Below are positions 17,990 to 28,141 of a DNA stretch of 48,673 nt, one piece after another. Position 1 is the stretch's first letter. The number at the start of each line of letters is the position of its first letter. The DNA is from Chloroflexi bacterium ADurb.Bin180 (GTDB lineage: Bacteria > Chloroflexota > Anaerolineae > UBA2200), in contig MWCV01000018.1 in NCBI GenBank assembly GCA_002070215.1, forward strand, positions 1-48,673, in the 5' to 3' direction. The notes beneath the pieces are model-generated. The model was given only the letters and a program-made list of their open reading frames with translations, ran no database searches and was not told the DNA's origin. Both the position numbers and the translations under genes were made by a program.

Positions 17990-18448
17990 CTAGGGCATGG
18001 CGGGAAGAAGCGGCGCAAAGATGCGAGATATGCCTGCGGGCTGGCCAAGTGCTTGTCCAGCGTATTCGAGCCAGGCATGGGCGTGCAGTTCCGCTCCCGC
18101 CCTCTGAATCCCGATGCGCAATACAGAAGCGATGCCGCGTCTCTTGAGCATCCATTGCAGCGCAATCGCCTGGCGCAGGCAGCGCATGGGATAAAGGTGG
18201 TGGCGGGCGGCGATGGCAACCAGCTCGGAGTATCGCTGAGCCCGCAGGCACTCACGTTTGTCCTCAGTAGTGGTCCTGGGGTCCAGCGGAGAAGTGATCC
18301 TCGTACGAAAACGGCCGATGGGTATCAGTCGCAGCGCAACATCCGCCACCAGTAGACCAAACCAGGCCTCGGCCAGGGCCAGCCGCTCCTCTTCCGGTAG
18401 CTCATAGAGACGTTTGAGATTCCTGGGTAGTCTTACACAGCAGACCAT
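17990..18448 (-). CDS. Lasso-peptide-type B2 protein (transglutaminase-like peptidase)
   Basis: A 152-residue protein of the transglutaminase-like family that removes the leader in lasso peptide synthesis. The catalytic Cys lies in MRCLRQAIALQWMLKRRG and the His in HAHAWLEYAG, in the spacing of the family, so the peptidase core looks intact. ATG 18448 has GGAG 4-5 nt upstream; an ATG at 18463 has no such site. The start lies inside the 3' end of the B1 gene (47-bp overlap), so the two are coupled. No lasso cyclase (asparagine-synthetase-like) and no recognisable precursor is present in the window, so the substrate is unknown. Confidence 0.82.
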   Translation of the reverse strand: MVCCVRLPRNLKRLYELPEEERLALAEAWFGLLVADVALRLIPIGRFRTRITSPLDPRTTTEDKRECLRAQRYSELVAIAARHHLYPMRCLRQAIALQWMLKRRGIASVLRIGIQRAGAELHAHAWLEYAGQALGQPAGISRIFAPLLPAMP

Positions 18449-18701
18449 TCTGCTCCAGTTCATCGATCAGGTCCAGGAGATCATGCTCGAGCTGCGTGTC
18501 GGTAGCATCATACTCCTCAGCCAGCGTCTGAACGACCGGCTCGACCCGACCGAGCTCCAGGAGCAGCTCCCACATCCGCTGGCCAACCTCGTCAAGAACA
18601 AAGTATCGGCCGGTGCGCGCGTTGAGCAGGACGGTCTCCTGATCTAGGGAGGTCGCCACAACGAAGGGGGAGGGAACCCAGCTCTGTGCCTGCGTGTCCA
18701 T
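18402..18701 (-). CDS. PqqD-like peptide-recognition protein (lasso B1 type)
   Basis: A 99-residue stand-alone RiPP recognition element. The core FVVATSLDQETVLLNARTG, YFVLDEVGQRMWELLLE and the C-terminal helix region DLLDLIDELEQNGLL match the PqqD fold, which binds leader peptides and presents them to a processing enzyme. It is directly upstream of and overlaps the B2 peptidase. Read on its own, it could also serve another leader-bearing substrate. It is transcribed leftward from a promoter at 18769-18796, with a leader of about 60 nt and no room for a precursor gene. Confidence 0.85.
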   Translation of the reverse strand: MDTQAQSWVPSPFVVATSLDQETVLLNARTGRYFVLDEVGQRMWELLLELGRVEPVVQTLAEEYDATDTQLEHDLLDLIDELEQNGLLCKTTQESQTSL

Positions 18702-20028: not shown

Positions 20029-21180
20029 GTGAAGAGATATGCAGAAATCATTGGCTGGGGCAAGCACCTGCCGCAGCAGGTTGTGACCAACGACGACCTG
20101 GCGCGCACCATCGATACGAGTGACAGGTGGATCCGCGAGCACACTGGCATTCGCGAGAGGCGCATCGCCGGCCCCGGGGAGACATCGGTGGCGATGGGCG
20201 CTGCCGCGGCTCGAGCAGCTCTGGCCGTGGCCGAGCTCAAGCCGACAGATGTGGACCTGATTATCTTCTCATCCTATACTCCGGACTACCAGTTCCCCGG
20301 CGGTGCGCCGATGCTCCAGAAAGAGCTTGGAGCCACTCACGCTGCTGCGTTTGATCTTCGCGCCGGCTGCCCGGGGTTCCTCTTTGGCGTCTCTGTGGCG
20401 AGTCAGTTCATCGCCAACGGGGTGTATCGGCGCGTGCTGGTGGTAGCGGCGGAGGTGGTCTCGCAGTTTGTCAACTGGCAGGATCGCCGCTCCTGCGTGC
20501 TGTTCGGCGATGGGGCTGGAGCGGTCGTTCTCGAAGCCAGCGCTCGACGCACCGGAGTGCTGCATACGGCTCTAGGCACACAGGGTGCAGATTACGATGC
20601 CATGATCTTTCGCGGAGCCGGAAGCCGCCACCCCATCACCGCGGAACCGTTTTCGGACGAGCTGCGCTTTCTTCAGACCGACGGCCAGAGAGTGCTCAAC
20701 TTTGCCGTGCGCACGGTCACTACCAGACTGAAGCAGGAGCTGGTGCTGGGCGGGGCGGAGATGGAAGATATCGCCCTGGTGATTCCACAGCAGTCCAATC
20801 TGAACTTTATGCACTGGCTGTGCAAAAAGCTGGGCTTTCCGACGGAGCGAGTGTTCGTCAACGTGGAGCGCTACGCCAATACATCGTCAGCGTCCATTGC
20901 CATTGCGCTGTGCGAAGCCTTCGAGCAGGGCCGGATCAACGAAGGCGACGATGTGCTGCTGCTCAGCTTTGGAGCGGGGTTGAACTGGGCCTCGGTGCTG
21001 GTGCGTTGCGGGGTGCGCGAGGGCGAAGACGAGACTAGCCTGGAACCGGCCACGATCCTGGCTGGCGTCCAGCACATGCTGCGGCACGCCCGGGCTATGG
21101 CCGAGGTGGGAGTGAGTAATCTGACCTCGGCGGTGAGTCTGGCCCTGCTACCCTTCTTTACCCGCAGCAGCAAAAAGTAG
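20029..21180 (+). CDS. 3-oxoacyl-ACP synthase III-like protein with His-to-Gln change in the catalytic triad
   Basis: A 383-residue thiolase-fold protein of the FabH family. The active Cys is C114 in LRAGCPGFLFG, and GDGAGAVVLE and the Asn N284 in YANTSSAS are present. The catalytic His, normally in a PHQAN motif, is replaced by Gln254 in IPQQSNLNF (codon CAG at 20788-20790). Cys and Asn are therefore kept but His is lost. Such an enzyme might act as an acyltransferase or condense by another route; ordinary FabH decarboxylative activity is doubtful. GTG 20029 has GAGG 7 nt upstream. It stands alone, converging with the HEAT-like gene and overlapping it by 33 bp. Confidence 0.85.
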   Translation: MKRYAEIIGWGKHLPQQVVTNDDLARTIDTSDRWIREHTGIRERRIAGPGETSVAMGAAAARAALAVAELKPTDVDLIIFSSYTPDYQFPGGAPMLQKELGATHAAAFDLRAGCPGFLFGVSVASQFIANGVYRRVLVVAAEVVSQFVNWQDRRSCVLFGDGAGAVVLEASARRTGVLHTALGTQGADYDAMIFRGAGSRHPITAEPFSDELRFLQTDGQRVLNFAVRTVTTRLKQELVLGGAEMEDIALVIPQQSNLNFMHWLCKKLGFPTERVFVNVERYANTSSASIAIALCEAFEQGRINEGDDVLLLSFGAGLNWASVLVRCGVREGEDETSLEPATILAGVQHMLRHARAMAEVGVSNLTSAVSLALLPFFTRSSKK

Positions 21181-21903
21181 GCGGTCGGCCCACTCGGGAG
21201 CGAGTTTGCGCAGTCGGTTCTTCTTGAGGTTCTCACGGATCAGCCAGCGCACGTCTGGATCCGGATGCTGGCTCCACTTCTCAAGCAGCGGCTGGCCTTC
21301 CTCAGGCAGCGCTGCGACAGCCACGCTCCAGCAGTAGGCCATGCCCTGCCTCAGAACCCGGAAATCCTCGCTGCGGCGGTCCACTGCAGTGGACAGAGAC
21401 GCGGTGATCCGGTCCAGCAGGCGCAGCACCTCGGCCGCGTGGTGCGTGGCTTTCAGCAGGCGGGGTTCGGCCAGTGCGGCGGCAGCGGCCCTTTGGACCA
21501 GCGGGGGCCCCTCGGCCCAGGAGAGCATTGCTGTGAGCAGCGCGTCCATGTCGGTGTCTCCCCAGCGCTGCAGGGCCATCGCTACGGCTTCGCGGATGCG
21601 CCAGCGCGGGTCCTGCGCCAGGCGCCACAGATCATCGAGCACATCGCGCTCACCTGCGCACAGGAGCCTGCCCAGGCCGATCACACCGCACATTGCCAGA
21701 AAGCCAGGCGGCTCATTGACCGGTGCCACCTCCGGCCCCAGGGCGGCGTGCCGCCTGAGCCAGGCCTCACTCGCCTCGTCGGCCACAGCCTGGGCCAGCT
21801 CGAGATTGGAGCGCGGCCCCGGAAGCCCCGATTCGCGCCGCAGGAATGGCTCCCAATCAGCAGTCTGTCTCAGCTCGAGGCGATAGTCCGCGACCTTGCT
21901 CAT
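21148..21903 (-). CDS. HEAT-repeat-like / DNA alkylation repeat-like protein
   Basis: A 251-residue, almost entirely helical protein. Repeating helical hairpins with Trp-Arg junctions are seen, such as DPRWRIREAVAMALQRWGD, VQRAAAAALAEPRLL and HPDPDVRWLIRENLKKNRL, the pattern of HEAT or DNA-alkylation-repeat proteins. The last motif, DVRWLIRENLKKN, is typical of this family. Function unknown. The start ATG 21903 has GAGG 6 nt upstream. It lies 26 bp after the PIG-L gene and its 3' end overlaps the convergent KASIII gene by 33 bp. Confidence 0.75.
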   Translation of the reverse strand: MSKVADYRLELRQTADWEPFLRRESGLPGPRSNLELAQAVADEASEAWLRRHAALGPEVAPVNEPPGFLAMCGVIGLGRLLCAGERDVLDDLWRLAQDPRWRIREAVAMALQRWGDTDMDALLTAMLSWAEGPPLVQRAAAAALAEPRLLKATHHAAEVLRLLDRITASLSTAVDRRSEDFRVLRQGMAYCWSVAVAALPEEGQPLLEKWSQHPDPDVRWLIRENLKKNRLRKLAPEWADRLLFAAAGKEG

Positions 21904-21929: not shown

Positions 21930-22658
21930 CTAGCGCAGAATGATGCGGCGGTATTCTTCGGCAAAAGCAGCTCCGTACTTGCGCCCCAGCTCCGCGGCCC
22001 AGTCACGAACCCGCGCCTCGACCGATTCGGGGGGCAACTGGCTGCGATGACACTGCAGGGCCTTGATCTTGAGCTCGACCGTGTCGGTGATGTCCACAAA
22101 CGTATCCGCTTCAAGGGTGGCAAACAGGTAGATCTCACTCACCTTGTGCGGCTCGAGGCCCTCATCCAATAGCTCGCGGAAGATGAATCTCGTGCAGGCG
22201 GAAGGGAACACCGCATAGAGAGCGGCCTCGCCAGCGGCGCGATGGTCGGGGTGGTTCACATAAACGTTGCGGTTAAAGTAGCGCGTGGGGTCCGTGCAGG
22301 CGACGATATCTGGTCGATAGCGGCGAATGAGAGCAGTCAGCTCTCGCCGCAGTTCCAGCGACGGCTCAAGAGTCCCGTCCTCGTGATTGAGCAGGATCAC
22401 CGTTTGTACCCCCAGCACCCGAGCGGCCGCGAGCTGCTCTTTGCGGCGAATGGGGGCCATCTTTTCCGGTGGCATATCTGGCTGGTTGCTGCCACGGCTG
22501 CCGTCGGTGCAGAGCACATAGACTACATGTCGCCCTTCCTGGACCCAGCGGGCCGCTGTGCCAGCGACAGTGAATTCCGAGTCATCGGGATGAGCCGTGA
22601 TGATCATGCGGCAGGAGAGGGGTGCTGGCGGCGGGGTTGCTGTCTTTACGACTTGCAT
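21930..22658 (-). CDS. PIG-L/LmbE family deacetylase (MshB/BshB-like)
   Basis: A 242-residue zinc-dependent N-acetyl deacetylase of the LmbE fold. The metal-binding motif AHPDDSEF (about 22-29) and the second motif HPDHRAAGEAALYAVFP are present. Family members deacetylate N-acetylglucosaminyl compounds, including mycothiol and bacillithiol precursors. Its ATG overlaps the 3' end of the upstream MshA-like glycosyltransferase by 13 bp, so the two are translated together. This supports action on the product of that enzyme. An internal ATG (residue 18) is a possible alternative start. Confidence 0.9.
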   Translation of the reverse strand: MQVVKTATPPPAPLSCRMIITAHPDDSEFTVAGTAARWVQEGRHVVYVLCTDGSRGSNQPDMPPEKMAPIRRKEQLAAARVLGVQTVILLNHEDGTLEPSLELRRELTALIRRYRPDIVACTDPTRYFNRNVYVNHPDHRAAGEAALYAVFPSACTRFIFRELLDEGLEPHKVSEIYLFATLEADTFVDITDTVELKIKALQCHRSQLPPESVEARVRDWAAELGRKYGAAFAEEYRRIILR

Positions 22659-23923
22659 AGCTCCTCATAGACCTGAATGATTTGCTCGGCGACATTCGGC
22701 CAGGTGTAGGTGAGTGCGTGCGCCCGCGCGTTGGCGCCCAGTCTCTCACGCAAGTCGGCGTCGAGCAGTACCTGGCGCAGCTTGTCAGCCAGGGCATCGG
22801 GATCGCCGGCCGGAACCAGCAGCCCGGTCACGTTGTCTTCGATGGTGTGCATCAACCCGCCGACGCGCGACGCGATCACCGGAGCGCCGCAAGCCATCGC
22901 CTCCAGCGCCACCAGGCCAAAGGACTCGTAATGCGAAGGCACGACGACCACCTCGGCTGCCGAGTAGTACTGGGCCAGCGTGTCCTGCGCCCGTGAGCCA
23001 AGAAAAACCACGAGGTCGTCCAGCCCTACTTCCTTCTTCAGTTTGTCCAGACACTCGATTTCATTCTCGAGTGCGTCGCTGTCCTCGTCAACGTCTCCGC
23101 CGATCACTGCCAGACAGGTGCCCTTGACCAACTCTGGCTCGAGGTCGGTGAGCTTGCACATGGCACGCACCAGAGTATCCAGTCCCTTCAGCGGGTCGAG
23201 CCGACCGACGAACAGCACCAGGCGGCACACTCCGGGAAGGTCAAGCCCTATGGCGCGCCTGGCTTCGGCCTGTGGAATGGGATGGAACATCTCCGGGTCG
23301 ACACCCAGAGGGATGACGCGGATGCGGTCCGGATCAGCTCCGTAGAGTTCGATGGTCTGTTGCCGGTCGAGAGGGGTTGCGGCGATGATGCGGTCCAGAC
23401 TGGAGACAAGCTCGCTTTCTACCTGGATGCGAACGTCGGTCTCTTTCTCCTCTGGACTGCGGGCTACCGTGTCCTTCATCTTGCCCAGGGTATGGAACAT
23501 GTGCACCGTGGGCACGGAATGACGGTGCGAGAACTCGCGTGCGACCCAGCCCGAAAGCCAGTAATGGCTGTGCAACACATCGTAGGTGATGCCTTCCTGC
23601 TCGGCCATCGCCTCCATCCCCGAGAGAAACTCGGGCAGGTGTGAAAAGACCAGGTTCTTGCTGTAGGGTTCTTCCGGGCCCGCCGGCAAGTGGATCACCC
23701 GCACGTTCGGCCAGGGATGGACGATGCGATCCCGGGCGGCATCCTGAGAGCGGGTGTAGATGTCGACCACCAGGCCCCTTGCGCCCAACTCGCGCGATAG
23801 CTCGCGGACGTAGACGTTCATACCGCCTGTCTCCTTGCCGCCCAGAGCGGCCAGGGGGCAGGTATGAACGCTGAGCATGGCAATGCGGCGCGGATACCTG
23901 GAACGTTTGCCTGGACGGGTCAC
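22646..23923 (-). CDS. GT4 glycosyltransferase resembling MshA / sucrose-phosphate synthase
   Basis: A 425-residue GT-B fold retaining glycosyltransferase. The N-terminal domain has SVHTCPLA, GGMNVYVREL (about 33-42), VDIYTR, HSHYWLSG and HTLGKMKD, which closely follow MshA, the enzyme that joins UDP-GlcNAc to inositol phosphate in mycothiol synthesis. The C-terminal domain has FVGRLDPLKG and the nucleotide-sugar motif HYESFGLVALEAMACG with E-x7-E. The acceptor is unknown: inositol phosphate (MshA) and malate (BshA) are options, and sucrose-phosphate synthases share part of the motif set. GTG 23923 has AAGGAG 4 nt upstream. Operonic with the deacetylase. Confidence 0.88.
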   Translation of the reverse strand: MTRPGKRSRYPRRIAMLSVHTCPLAALGGKETGGMNVYVRELSRELGARGLVVDIYTRSQDAARDRIVHPWPNVRVIHLPAGPEEPYSKNLVFSHLPEFLSGMEAMAEQEGITYDVLHSHYWLSGWVAREFSHRHSVPTVHMFHTLGKMKDTVARSPEEKETDVRIQVESELVSSLDRIIAATPLDRQQTIELYGADPDRIRVIPLGVDPEMFHPIPQAEARRAIGLDLPGVCRLVLFVGRLDPLKGLDTLVRAMCKLTDLEPELVKGTCLAVIGGDVDEDSDALENEIECLDKLKKEVGLDDLVVFLGSRAQDTLAQYYSAAEVVVVPSHYESFGLVALEAMACGAPVIASRVGGLMHTIEDNVTGLLVPAGDPDALADKLRQVLLDADLRERLGANARAHALTYTWPNVAEQIIQVYEELCKS

Positions 23924-24070: not shown

Positions 24071-25180
<1,110 letters not shown>

Positions 25181-26473
25181 CTAACGCCTCGCTTTCGATC
25201 CCGCCTGAATCTTGAGCAGCTCGCTGGCCAGCTTGGCTGGATCGTGGCGCCAGGGCCTTTCCAGGTCGACTACATCCGCCGACCAGGTAGGTACGGTACC
25301 CTCGTCACCCGGCTGAACCATGACCGAGTTCCAGGTGGTGGGCAGGGTCACGTCCAAACGGTTGTTGGCCAGCACATAATCGAACAGGTCATTGCCAACG
25401 TGGCTCTCGATGGCCCGAACGTGATCGACTACTGTATATCCATCTGTCTCGCCCGGCTGCGTGGCCACGTTGCACACATAGACCTTGATCGCATCCGAAG
25501 CGCGGATGGCTGCGGCGATGTCCCTCACCAGCAGGTTGGGCAAGATGCTGGTATAGAGGCTGCCAGGCCCAACCACGATCACATCGGCGCCCAGCAGAGC
25601 CTGCACCGCCTCGCCATACCCCCGGACATCATCCGGCTGCAGAAACACGCGCTCAATGGGTACGCCAGCCCGCGGTATCTGCGACTCGCCCTGAATCTGA
25701 TGCTGAGCGCCCGCGACTTCGGCACAGAGCGTGACGCTCTGCATCGTCGAAGGCAGCACGCGGCCCCGCACTGCCAGAACCTTGCTCGACTGGCGGATCG
25801 CCTGAGCAAAGTCGCCGGTGACCCCGGTCATCGCCGCGATGAACAGGTTGCCAAAGCTATGCCCGTCGAGTCCCACACCCTGCCCGAAGCGATACTGGAA
25901 CAGCAGGGCCATAAGCGGTTCTGCCTCGGCCAGAGCGCTGATGCAGCTCCGCAGGTCTCCGGGGGGCAGCAGTCCCAGCTCCTGCCTCAGTCTGCCCGAG
26001 CTGCCGCCGTCGTCCGCCACCGTCACGATGGCAGTGAGATTGTCCGTTCGTTCCTTCAGGCCCCGGAGCAGGGTCGACTGTCCCGTGCCGCCGCCGATGG
26101 CCACCATTTTCGGACCGCGATGCCTTACGCGCCGACGATAGACGGCGTCGACAAGGCGGCCCTGACCCTCATCATAGAACACGGTCACCAGAGAGTGGCT
26201 CAGCCGGTAGACGGCCACGGCCACGCACGCCGTGCCCAGCAGTGCCAGCAACAGTCCACGGACAGAGCGCGGCAGGAATTGCAGGGTGACGTTGTAGGCG
26301 ATGGGCGACGCCGCCCCGGTGAATTCCAGCGCGCGGTACATCTGGACGTAGAAAAAGCTCACGCCCAGGCTCAGCAGCAGCAACCCCAGACCCAGCAGGG
26401 CCAGCCAGCGCTTGACGCCCATGCCTGGGTAGAGCCACTTCCATGCTGAGGTCAGTCTCTCGCGCAGACGCAC
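25181..26473 (-). CDS. Membrane-anchored YvcK/CofD-like gluconeogenesis factor
   Basis: The YvcK family binds UDP-sugars and supports growth on gluconeogenic carbon and cell-wall synthesis. This 430-residue version has two N-terminal membrane segments (about 20-42 and 70-90) not found in Bacillus YvcK. A CofD-like domain follows, with KMVAIGGGTGQSTLLRGLK, TVADDGGSSGRLR, PPGDLRSCI, DGHSFGNLFIAA and GPGSLYTSILPNLLV. GTG 26473 is preferred because the N-terminal basic residues and membrane segment begin there and GGAG-rich sequence lies upstream. It has a good promoter and is followed by gap, which fits a link to central carbon flux. Confidence 0.9.
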   Translation of the reverse strand: MRLRERLTSAWKWLYPGMGVKRWLALLGLGLLLLSLGVSFFYVQMYRALEFTGAASPIAYNVTLQFLPRSVRGLLLALLGTACVAVAVYRLSHSLVTVFYDEGQGRLVDAVYRRRVRHRGPKMVAIGGGTGQSTLLRGLKERTDNLTAIVTVADDGGSSGRLRQELGLLPPGDLRSCISALAEAEPLMALLFQYRFGQGVGLDGHSFGNLFIAAMTGVTGDFAQAIRQSSKVLAVRGRVLPSTMQSVTLCAEVAGAQHQIQGESQIPRAGVPIERVFLQPDDVRGYGEAVQALLGADVIVVGPGSLYTSILPNLLVRDIAAAIRASDAIKVYVCNVATQPGETDGYTVVDHVRAIESHVGNDLFDYVLANNRLDVTLPTTWNSVMVQPGDEGTVPTWSADVVDLERPWRHDPAKLASELLKIQAGSKARR

Positions 26474-26500
26474 TGCTCCACCCCTCCCCAAAACCAAACC

Positions 26501-26529
26501 ATTATAACCCGCGCTTGCCGATGGGTCAA
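26501..26529 (-). promoter_or_regulatory. Promoter of yvcK
   Basis: Reading leftward, TTGACC (26529-26524), a 17-bp spacer and consensus TATAAT (26506-26501), 28 bp upstream of the GTG start. It is divergent from the promoter of the PdtaS-like kinase. Confidence 0.75.
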
Positions 26530-26553
26530 AACCAGTAGCGGCCCGCGTGCCGT

Positions 26554-26581
26554 TTTGCTGCGTGCGGAGTTGGACTATAAT
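26554..26581 (+). promoter_or_regulatory. Promoter of pdtaS-pdtaR
   Basis: A consensus -10 TATAAT at 26576-26581, 42 bp before the kinase ATG, with TTTGCT (26554-26559) as the best -35 at a 16-bp spacing. The -35 is weak. Confidence 0.55.
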
Positions 26582-26623
26582 CGGCTTTGGTCTTGATACC
26601 CTGAAGGAAGAACAACTGATCCA

Positions 26624-28141
26624 ATGAGCACAGCTCAACGGCGAGACACTCCCGAAGACTCACCCGCACCGCCAGGGGCACACCAGGCCGATAGGGACCT
26701 GCTCCGCAGAGTGAAGCAGGCCTTGCCCATAGTGGCTGATCTGAGCCGCAGCGACCTGCTCTTGTATGTTCCTGCCGGCAGCGGTCGGGCCAGGATTGAT
26801 TTCCAGGCCAGGCCACGCTCGATCTTTCCACTCTATGCCAGTGACCTGGAAGGTGGCGTCGTGGACAGCGGTTCGAGCCCGTGGGTCTTTCGGTCACTGT
26901 CGTGCCATCAGAGACGGCGGACTGCACAGAGCGCTCTCGTTGGCGATGTGCCCATCATGCGCGAGATGCTTCCCGTCTGCAACGAGTTGGGAAAGCCCAT
27001 CGCGGCTGTGTCGGTCGAAACCAACCTGCTGGCTCACGAGCGCCACCGGAGGCGCAGCAGTGCATTCCAGCGGGCGCTGCGTCTGCTGCAGGACATGGCT
27101 TTGCGCGGTGAGCTGAACGGGGCGGACAGGCTCTCGCCTTTTGGCGAGCACGACGGCATTGTGGTTATCGACGAGCAGCGACGCATCCGCTATATGAGCG
27201 GAATCGCCACCAACCTGTACCGGCACATCGGCTACATGAGCAATCTGCTGGGGCAGAGTGTGTACGCTGTGGGTACGGCTGACGCGGAACTTGTCGACGC
27301 GGCGCTCAAGAGCGGCACCTGCCTGGAGAGGGAGAACGAGGAGCACGGGCGCGTATGGGTGCGCAAGGTGATTCCCCTGTACGCTCCCCGGTCCAGGTGG
27401 GCATGGCCGCTCACCAGACCGCCTGGCCCGCCTTGCCCTCCAGGGGCTGTTCTCACCGGGGCGCTGTGGACCATTCACGATGCCACGGAGGCTCGTGAGA
27501 AGGAAAGCGAGCTCGAGGCCAAGAACGCGATGGTTCAGGAGATCCACCATCGCGTCAAGAACAACCTGCAGGCCATCGCCTCGTTGCTGCGCATGCAGGC
27601 GCGGCGGGCGACCCGGCCAGAGGTGCAGCAGGCGCTCGACGAGTCGGTCAACCGCATAATGAGCGTGGCAGTGGTGCACGAGTTTCTATCGTGCATCAAT
27701 GCCAGCGTCATCGACGTGCACGAAGTTGCGCAGCGCATCGTCGATCAGATGACGCAGAGCCTGGTGGACCCCGGCAAGGCGATTCGGTTCGAATTGCGTG
27801 GAACATCGATCTACCTTTCGGCTCAGCAGGCCACAACCTGCGCACTGGTGGTGAACGAGTTGCTGCAGAACGCGGTGGAGCACGGCTACGGAGATCGCGA
27901 CGTGGGGCTGGTGACAATCGAGCTGGCCGATGATGGTGAATGGGTAACCATCATCGTTGGCGACGACGGCGCCGGCCTGCCAGACAACTTTGACGTCAAC
28001 GAAGATGGCGGTCTCGGGCTGCGCATCGTGCGTTCGTTGGTGCAGGGCGACCTGAAGGGCCGTTTCGAAATCAAAGAAGAACAAGGGGTAAAGGCCATTG
28101 TGACCTTCCCCAAGACACCATTGGGAGGTTTGAAGAGTTGA
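26624..28141 (+). CDS. pdtaS: PdtaS-type cytosolic sensor histidine kinase
   Basis: A 505-residue soluble kinase. The N-terminal region (about 20-150) matches the histidine-kinase N-terminal sensor domain of PdtaS, including SDLLLYVP, ARPRSIFPLY and MREMLPVCNELGKPIAAVSVETNLLA. A PAS-like domain follows (about 175-290, GIVVIDEQRRIRYMS). A HisKA_2 domain contains EIHHRVKNNLQAIASLLRMQ with the phospho-acceptor His at 308 or 309, then HATPase_c with VVNELLQNAVEHGYG and GLGLRIVRSLV. A Pro-rich insertion (PPGPPCPPG) lies near residue 270. The next gene, an ANTAR regulator, overlaps its stop as TTGA, the PdtaS/PdtaR arrangement. Confidence 0.93.
   Translation: MSTAQRRDTPEDSPAPPGAHQADRDLLRRVKQALPIVADLSRSDLLLYVPAGSGRARIDFQARPRSIFPLYASDLEGGVVDSGSSPWVFRSLSCHQRRRTAQSALVGDVPIMREMLPVCNELGKPIAAVSVETNLLAHERHRRRSSAFQRALRLLQDMALRGELNGADRLSPFGEHDGIVVIDEQRRIRYMSGIATNLYRHIGYMSNLLGQSVYAVGTADAELVDAALKSGTCLERENEEHGRVWVRKVIPLYAPRSRWAWPLTRPPGPPCPPGAVLTGALWTIHDATEAREKESELEAKNAMVQEIHHRVKNNLQAIASLLRMQARRATRPEVQQALDESVNRIMSVAVVHEFLSCINASVIDVHEVAQRIVDQMTQSLVDPGKAIRFELRGTSIYLSAQQATTCALVVNELLQNAVEHGYGDRDVGLVTIELADDGEWVTIIVGDDGAGLPDNFDVNEDGGLGLRIVRSLVQGDLKGRFEIKEEQGVKAIVTFPKTPLGGLKS

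Follow-up and report, generated by a model that had tools for sequence, protein, structure and literature searches.

Two overlapping genes of an Anaerolineae genome, encoding a glycosyltransferase (GT) and a PIG-L family deacetylase, appear, with a probability that I put at about one half, to supply two steps of a conserved three-enzyme route that is completed by a PF13480 protein of predicted FemX fold and that would yield a small glucosamine conjugate. The clade and the acceptor pocket of the GT suggest that it would take GlcNAc from UDP-GlcNAc and attach it to a small phosphorylated polyol, which may be inositol phosphate. The PIG-L protein would then strip the acetyl group and leave a free glucosamine amine, as suggested by its family, its catalytic residues and the gene order, and the PF13480 protein, to which linkage, co-occurrence and fold point, would add an acyl or aminoacyl group to this amine. 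The overall logic would resemble that of mycothiol synthesis (MshA, MshB, MshC) or of the NodC-NodB-NodA series with a different third enzyme: the teicoplanin, Nod-factor and mycothiol routes have the reaction order of the proposed triad (GlcNAc transfer, deacetylation, N-acylation), whereas they differ from it in the acceptor and in a third enzyme that is unrelated or distant.

Little is known of the thiols and small glucosamine conjugates of Chloroflexota, and the literature searched, most subscription journals lying outside the search, yielded no description of this triad, of MshA or of MshC in Chloroflexota. The conserved set of GT, deacetylase and FemX-fold protein provides three directly testable enzymes. 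If the third takes aminoacyl-tRNA, the set would constitute a route to an aminoacyl-glucosamine metabolite unrecorded in that literature, and one that would reach even organisms labelled here as Dehalococcoides-like on the basis of their gene content and small genomes. Automatic annotation of a protein as 'MshA' outside Actinobacteria should not be taken to mean mycothiol.

The locus and its gene order

The window, that is, the whole stretch of DNA analysed, is a 48,673-base contig (G000:C18) of a genome of 3.13 Mb, 95% complete and in 170 contigs (G000). Its host belongs to the class Anaerolineae of the Chloroflexota, and the closest named relative, from the same genus, is Anaerolineales bacterium UBA2200, with a GT that is 85% identical. 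The GT gene (22646..23923, minus strand; 425 aa, GTG start) and the PIG-L gene (21930..22658, minus strand; 242 aa, ATG start; PF02585, 110.6 bits) overlap by 13 nt at the stop of the former and the start of the latter, and GAGGAGCT stands before the PIG-L ATG. The MshA blocks that the initial annotation had read in the GT as VHT-PL, GGMNVYV, VDIYTR and HSHYWLSG are all present (VHTCPL, GGMNVYV (33), VDIYTR and HSHYWLSG (118)) and its coordinates were exact; the deacetylase that it had placed over the 3' end of the GT gene does carry AHPDDSEF, at residues 22-29, and an intact active site.

The GT gene is immediately preceded, in the same orientation, by a gene for GAPDH (24071..25165, minus strand; TIGR01534, above cut-off) and, further upstream, by one for YvcK (25181..26638, minus strand; TIGR01826, 345 bits, above cut-off). 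Downstream of PIG-L, a gene for a HEAT-repeat protein (21148..21903, minus strand; PF13646) is conserved only within the genus, in G000 and G001. The order YvcK-GAPDH-GT-PIG-L was seen in the window's family wherever contigs reach. GAPDH is a linked neighbour, and no claim of pathway membership is made for it. Linkage of the GT to YvcK and/or GAPDH also occurs in several families even without PIG-L (relatives G013, G048 and G034); in G013 and G048 it is YvcK that adjoins the GT, there without PIG-L. Proteins of the YvcK type bind UDP-GlcNAc, so that a regulatory connection between YvcK and the GT is possible. Elsewhere in the window, the gene for a PqqD-like protein (18402-18701, minus strand; PF05402) overlaps that of a Transglut_core3 protein (17990-18463, minus strand; PF13471), an arrangement that resembles the B1/B2 pairs of lasso peptides.

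The glycosyltransferase is MshA-like

The GT matches the MshA model TIGR03449 with E=1e-112 and 376.9 bits, under the curated cut-off of 462.5, and it is because of this score that it is called MshA-like here and not MshA. The models of BshA, glycogen synthase and sucrose-phosphate synthase (SPS) score it far lower, the BshA model TIGR03999 giving 112.6 bits for a cut-off of 273.7. Among solved structures, MshA and SPS are nearly tied: the best relatives by sequence are CgMshA (3c48, 276 bits) and the cyanobacterial SPS Tll1590 (6kih, 265 bits), and the AlphaFold2 model of the GT (pLDDT 87) aligns with CgMshA 3c4q at Z 48.3 and with Tll1590 6kih at Z 48.7. The tree resolves this tie and places the GT beside MshA. 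Thirty GTs form one clade (99/97) that is sister to four actinobacterial MshAs (100/100), and this pair is split (99/94) from the cyanobacterial SPS and from Burkholderia and Streptomyces relatives. The clade, whose members all come from Chloroflexota except one from Thermodesulfobacteriota and one from a Nitrospiraceae MAG, represents an Anaerolineae family found class-wide, for example in the cultured Ornatilinea apprima (L151); the window GT stands outside the actinobacterial MshA clade, as its sister.

The window GT is about 40% identical to MshA, has the same fold and shares with it the signatures GGMN, HT and ESFG. It also has identical residues at all five equivalents of CgMshA N25, K78, Y110, T134 and R154, which line the inositol-phosphate pocket in the MshA structure. 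It differs from MshA in having HMFHT in place of HTAHT, in scoring below the equivalog cut-off and in standing without accompanying MshB, MshC and MshD. Tll1590 belongs to the same GT4 subfamily and fold and has a phosphorylated acceptor, but it falls in a separate clade and carries GGQN, HS and EPFG instead of GGMN, HT and ESFG. The GT is an MshA-like enzyme distinct from the sucrose-phosphate synthases; since tree and pocket place it beside MshA and the host is a member of the Chloroflexota, the earlier claim of an MshA-like GT coupled to a deacetylase outside Actinobacteria holds.

The almost equal score of Tll1590 and the linkage of YvcK and GAPDH genes to the GT within the family would fit an SPS-like enzyme of carbon metabolism. 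The split from the SPS clade in the tree, the lack of the SPS signature residues and the weak matches of the sucrose-phosphatase model PF05116 in the genome (32.2 and 23.1 bits) make this very unlikely, and a role in sucrose synthesis was rejected on these grounds. More distant GTs of the GGQN type (L228, L244, L189 and L190) occur in Chloroflexota, Caballeronia and Streptomyces, in clusters that carry SIS-domain, sugar-kinase-like, heptose-type, GT9 or carbamoyltransferase genes, and the Caballeronia GT also has a PIG-L gene nearby. Counts of the GT over the whole phylum take in a GGQN paralogue of heptose-type clusters and were therefore not treated as counts of the family described here.

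Inositol phosphate as a possible acceptor

Inositol phosphate is possibly the acceptor of the GT. It is favoured because the pocket is of the MshA type, Ino1 (inositol-1-phosphate synthase) is present in the window's genome, GT and Ino1 are associated in the class when the tree is left out of account (p=0.002), and several genomes have Ino1 and a GGMN-type GT 9-16 kb apart; no single one of these lines is decisive. On a CysS tree, used as a single-gene stand-in for the species tree, the association was not significant (4.3 agreeing vs 1.0 opposing pairs, median p 0.375) and, being lost after this correction, it speaks weakly for inositol as the acceptor. Six near-complete GT-bearing genomes have no Ino1. 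Proximity of Ino1 to the GT was observed in different families (G063, G074, G098, G090 (15.4-15.7 kb)); in G178 Ino1 is 8.6 kb from a more distant GT, and in G185 the distance to a GGMN-type GT is 9.3 kb, and an acyltransferase-like gene adjoins Ino1.

The deacetylase

The residues for metal binding and catalysis are all retained in the PIG-L protein (H23, D25, D26, R71/R72, H136, D138 and H139; roles after PMC4101496). It shares these residues and the fold family with the PIG-L/LmbE deacetylases, BshB, MshB and diacetylchitobiose deacetylase included, and it has the HPDD and HxDH metal site that membership among the diacetylchitobiose deacetylases requires. The latter are its nearest solved relatives (8bgn, E 2e-39), followed by LnmX, with BshB more distant. 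It scores 104 bits with the BshB1 model TIGR04001 (cut-off 182.5), misses the BshB2 cut-off too and reaches 38.3 bits with the MshB model TIGR03445 (cut-off 224), a comparison that covered, of the three PIG-L genes of the genome, the copy that overlaps the GT. As far as model scores and trees can tell, the two proteins of the window are thus members of the GT4 and PIG-L families, and not MshA, MshB, BshA, BshB or SPS.

The GT and the deacetylase probably act in sequence on a GlcNAc conjugate. Of 142 distinct GT loci, 22 have PIG-L as the next gene downstream, in the same orientation. The linked PIG-L mostly overlaps the GT or lies within about 100 nt of it, and such loci occur in several groups of the phylum and in a Nitrospiraceae MAG. 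Alternatively, the two could be mere neighbours, the GT acting on another phosphorylated acceptor and PIG-L on chitin-type or other GlcNAc sugars. The kinship of PIG-L with diacetylchitobiose deacetylases would agree with this, as would the lack of a neighbouring PIG-L in most relatives that carry the GT and the failure of PIG-L presence to co-vary with the GT on the CysS tree (2.3 agreeing vs 2.4 opposing pairs, no support), a test blunted by the several PIG-L paralogues per genome. Yet PIG-L is downstream and on the same strand in 22/22 linked loci, the linkage recurs across phylum groups and in the Nitrospiraceae MAG, and the linked PIG-Ls fall in two groups apart on the tree (2 changes), though the AU test does not reject a single clade (p 0.116). 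I consider this alternative unlikely. Given this AU result, I do not claim the two independent recruitments of PIG-L to the side of the GT that the tree suggests.

A PF13480 protein is the candidate third enzyme

Outside the window's family, the GT has a recurrent neighbour, a PF13480 protein of 330-380 aa encoded directly upstream. This gene precedes the GT on the same strand at 39 of the 142 distinct loci, and the full triad PF13480-GT-PIG-L is found at 14. Triads occur in Anaerolineae (L018, L029, L108 and L109), in the small-genome Dehalococcoides-like organisms (L233, L247-L250 and L252), in other Chloroflexota (L239, L241 and L255) and in the Nitrospiraceae MAG (L177). Within 1.5 kb of the GT, PF13480 and PIG-L were never seen in any other position or orientation over the 142 loci, and none of five GGQN paralogues has either as a neighbour; at 84 of the 132 loci of the GGMN type, no gene of this set adjoins the GT. 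The window's genome does encode a PF13480 protein (G000:C2 83,534-84,649, minus strand), and since this gene is unlinked to the GT in the window's family, I infer its role with the window GT from the relatives.

The two genes also occur together. Among 60 relatives, 41 have both GT and PF13480, 2 have the GT only, 5 have PF13480 only and 12 have neither (p=3e-7; p=1e-4 with one genome per family). Of 10 independent pairs on the CysS tree, 6 agree and about 0 oppose, with a median p of 0.031 (range 0.016-0.375). This co-occurrence is corroboration and not an independent trial, because some of these genomes supplied the gene neighbourhoods from which the hypothesis arose. The third step, which the initial annotation had left open, thereby gains a good candidate that is linked in relatives and present in the genome.

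Predicted fold of the partner

The fold of the partner was modelled on the homologue of locus L108, not on the copy of the window's genome. The best Foldseek matches of this AlphaFold2 model (pLDDT 95.6) were FemX (E 3.5e-13), then the streptothricin aminoacyl-tRNA-dependent ligases and MprF. VIA-align gave Z 21-23 for FemX/FemA, 20-21 for the streptothricin ligase Sbb17, 17-18.5 for L-PGS and MprF, 16.6 for both the mycothiol synthase MshD 2c27 and a glucosamine N-acetyltransferase, and 14 for N-myristoyltransferases. A FemX-type double-GNAT fold is thus predicted for the partner, in common with FemX, FemA and Sbb17 (Z 20-23 over 270-298 residues). The predicted likeness to FemX is at the level of the fold only: a profile search of PDB sequences with the partner did not find FemX, hhalign against a Fem-like protein of the window's genome was not significant, and PF04339 scored the PF13480 copy of G012 at 21.5 bits (cut-off 27). 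The partner also differs from FemX, FemA, MprF and Sbb17, with which it has no detectable sequence-profile match, in that GT and PIG-L genes are linked to its own.

Because GNAT enzymes of the Fem/MprF type take aminoacyl-tRNA (PMC2922099), use of aminoacyl-tRNA by the partner is a reasonable guess from the modelled fold. A bolder version, that it would use Cys-tRNA to attach Cys to the glucosamine that GT and PIG-L produce and thus form a new low-molecular-weight thiol in a tRNA-dependent manner, I regard as quite improbable; if true, it would give Anaerolineae and Dehalococcoides-like bacteria a non-homologous counterpart of MshC.

The acyl group could instead be a fatty one. Here the acceptor would be phosphatidylinositol or another phospholipid, the pair would form GlcN-PI in the manner of PIG-A and PIG-L in GPI synthesis, and a fatty acyl group from acyl-CoA would be added by the PF13480 protein. 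GT, PIG-L and Ino1 are all in the genome, in G185 the acyltransferase-like gene is beside Ino1, with a GGMN-type GT 9 kb from that Ino1, N-myristoyltransferases are among the fold matches of the partner, and in teicoplanin synthesis deacetylation precedes N-acylation with a long chain (PMC4101496). What renders such a lipid somewhat unlikely is that the MshA pocket for the phosphate of a soluble acceptor is wholly kept in the GT, that MshA and SPS are structurally far nearer to the GT model than PimA is (Z 48 vs 35), and that FemX-type ligases stand clearly above N-myristoyltransferases as matches of the partner (Z 22 vs 14).

Mycothiol and bacillithiol

In mycothiol synthesis the known cysteine ligase is MshC, which is paralogous to CysS (PMC2922099), and a survey found complete mshA-D sets in Actinobacteria only, mshC being the most widespread msh gene (PMC6282198). 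The lack of MshC and BshC that had been noted in the window extends to the 95% complete genome. The search for mshC, bshC and cysteine ligase-like genes that the initial annotation had proposed returned no match to BshC (PF10079) and no MshC-like gene in G000; the one CysS-type gene there, a 484-aa frame as long as a CysS, scores 287 bits with TIGR03447. Nor was BshC found in the window's family, or an MshC-like gene in any of its six members. Among the 60 relatives, BshC is confined to G008 and G030. These two genomes (L042 and L043), the sole BshC-bearing relatives in the class, are both without the GT.

MshC-like genes occur in 5 of 60 genomes of the class (345-403 bits; those inspected have a motif of the CGITPYDTTHLGHA type) and in 3 of the 43 relatives that bear the GT, and they are not associated with it in the class (3/40/2/15, p=0.6). 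The corresponding comparison of MshC-like genes with PF13480, tested as alternative third enzymes, gave 2/3/44/11 and p 0.08, which is suggestive of such a replacement in the class; the loci drawn from the rest of the phylum were picked in part for MshC-like genes and are biased in this respect.

The suggestion that the pair starts mycothiol or bacillithiol synthesis does not fare well on these data, since neither enzyme passes the MshA, MshB, BshA or BshB cut-offs, MshC-like genes are rare among GT-bearing relatives and absent from the family, and PIG-L is nearest to diacetylchitobiose deacetylase; the reading as a glucosamine-linked thiol is likewise not supported by a genome with one CysS-type gene, no MshC-like gene and no BshC. 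Both syntheses were rejected for G000. True thiol synthesis, with a ligase missed through genome gaps or replaced by a moonlighting CysS, would suit the position of MshA as the nearest characterised GT clade and the frequency of MshC-like genes elsewhere in Chloroflexota. The single CysS-type gene, the lack of BshC from the genome, the 0/6 count in the family, the missing association in the class and the cut-offs missed all speak against it, and I hold it to be highly improbable.

Outside the window's class, MshC-like CysS paralogues are common in Chloroflexota (G150, G071, G193, G165 and others; L201-L223). They are about 390-450 aa long, score 340-409 bits, carry the CGITPYDTTHLGHA motif in several cases and show no linkage to the GT at the loci observed. 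These Chloroflexota may have a mycothiol-like pathway.
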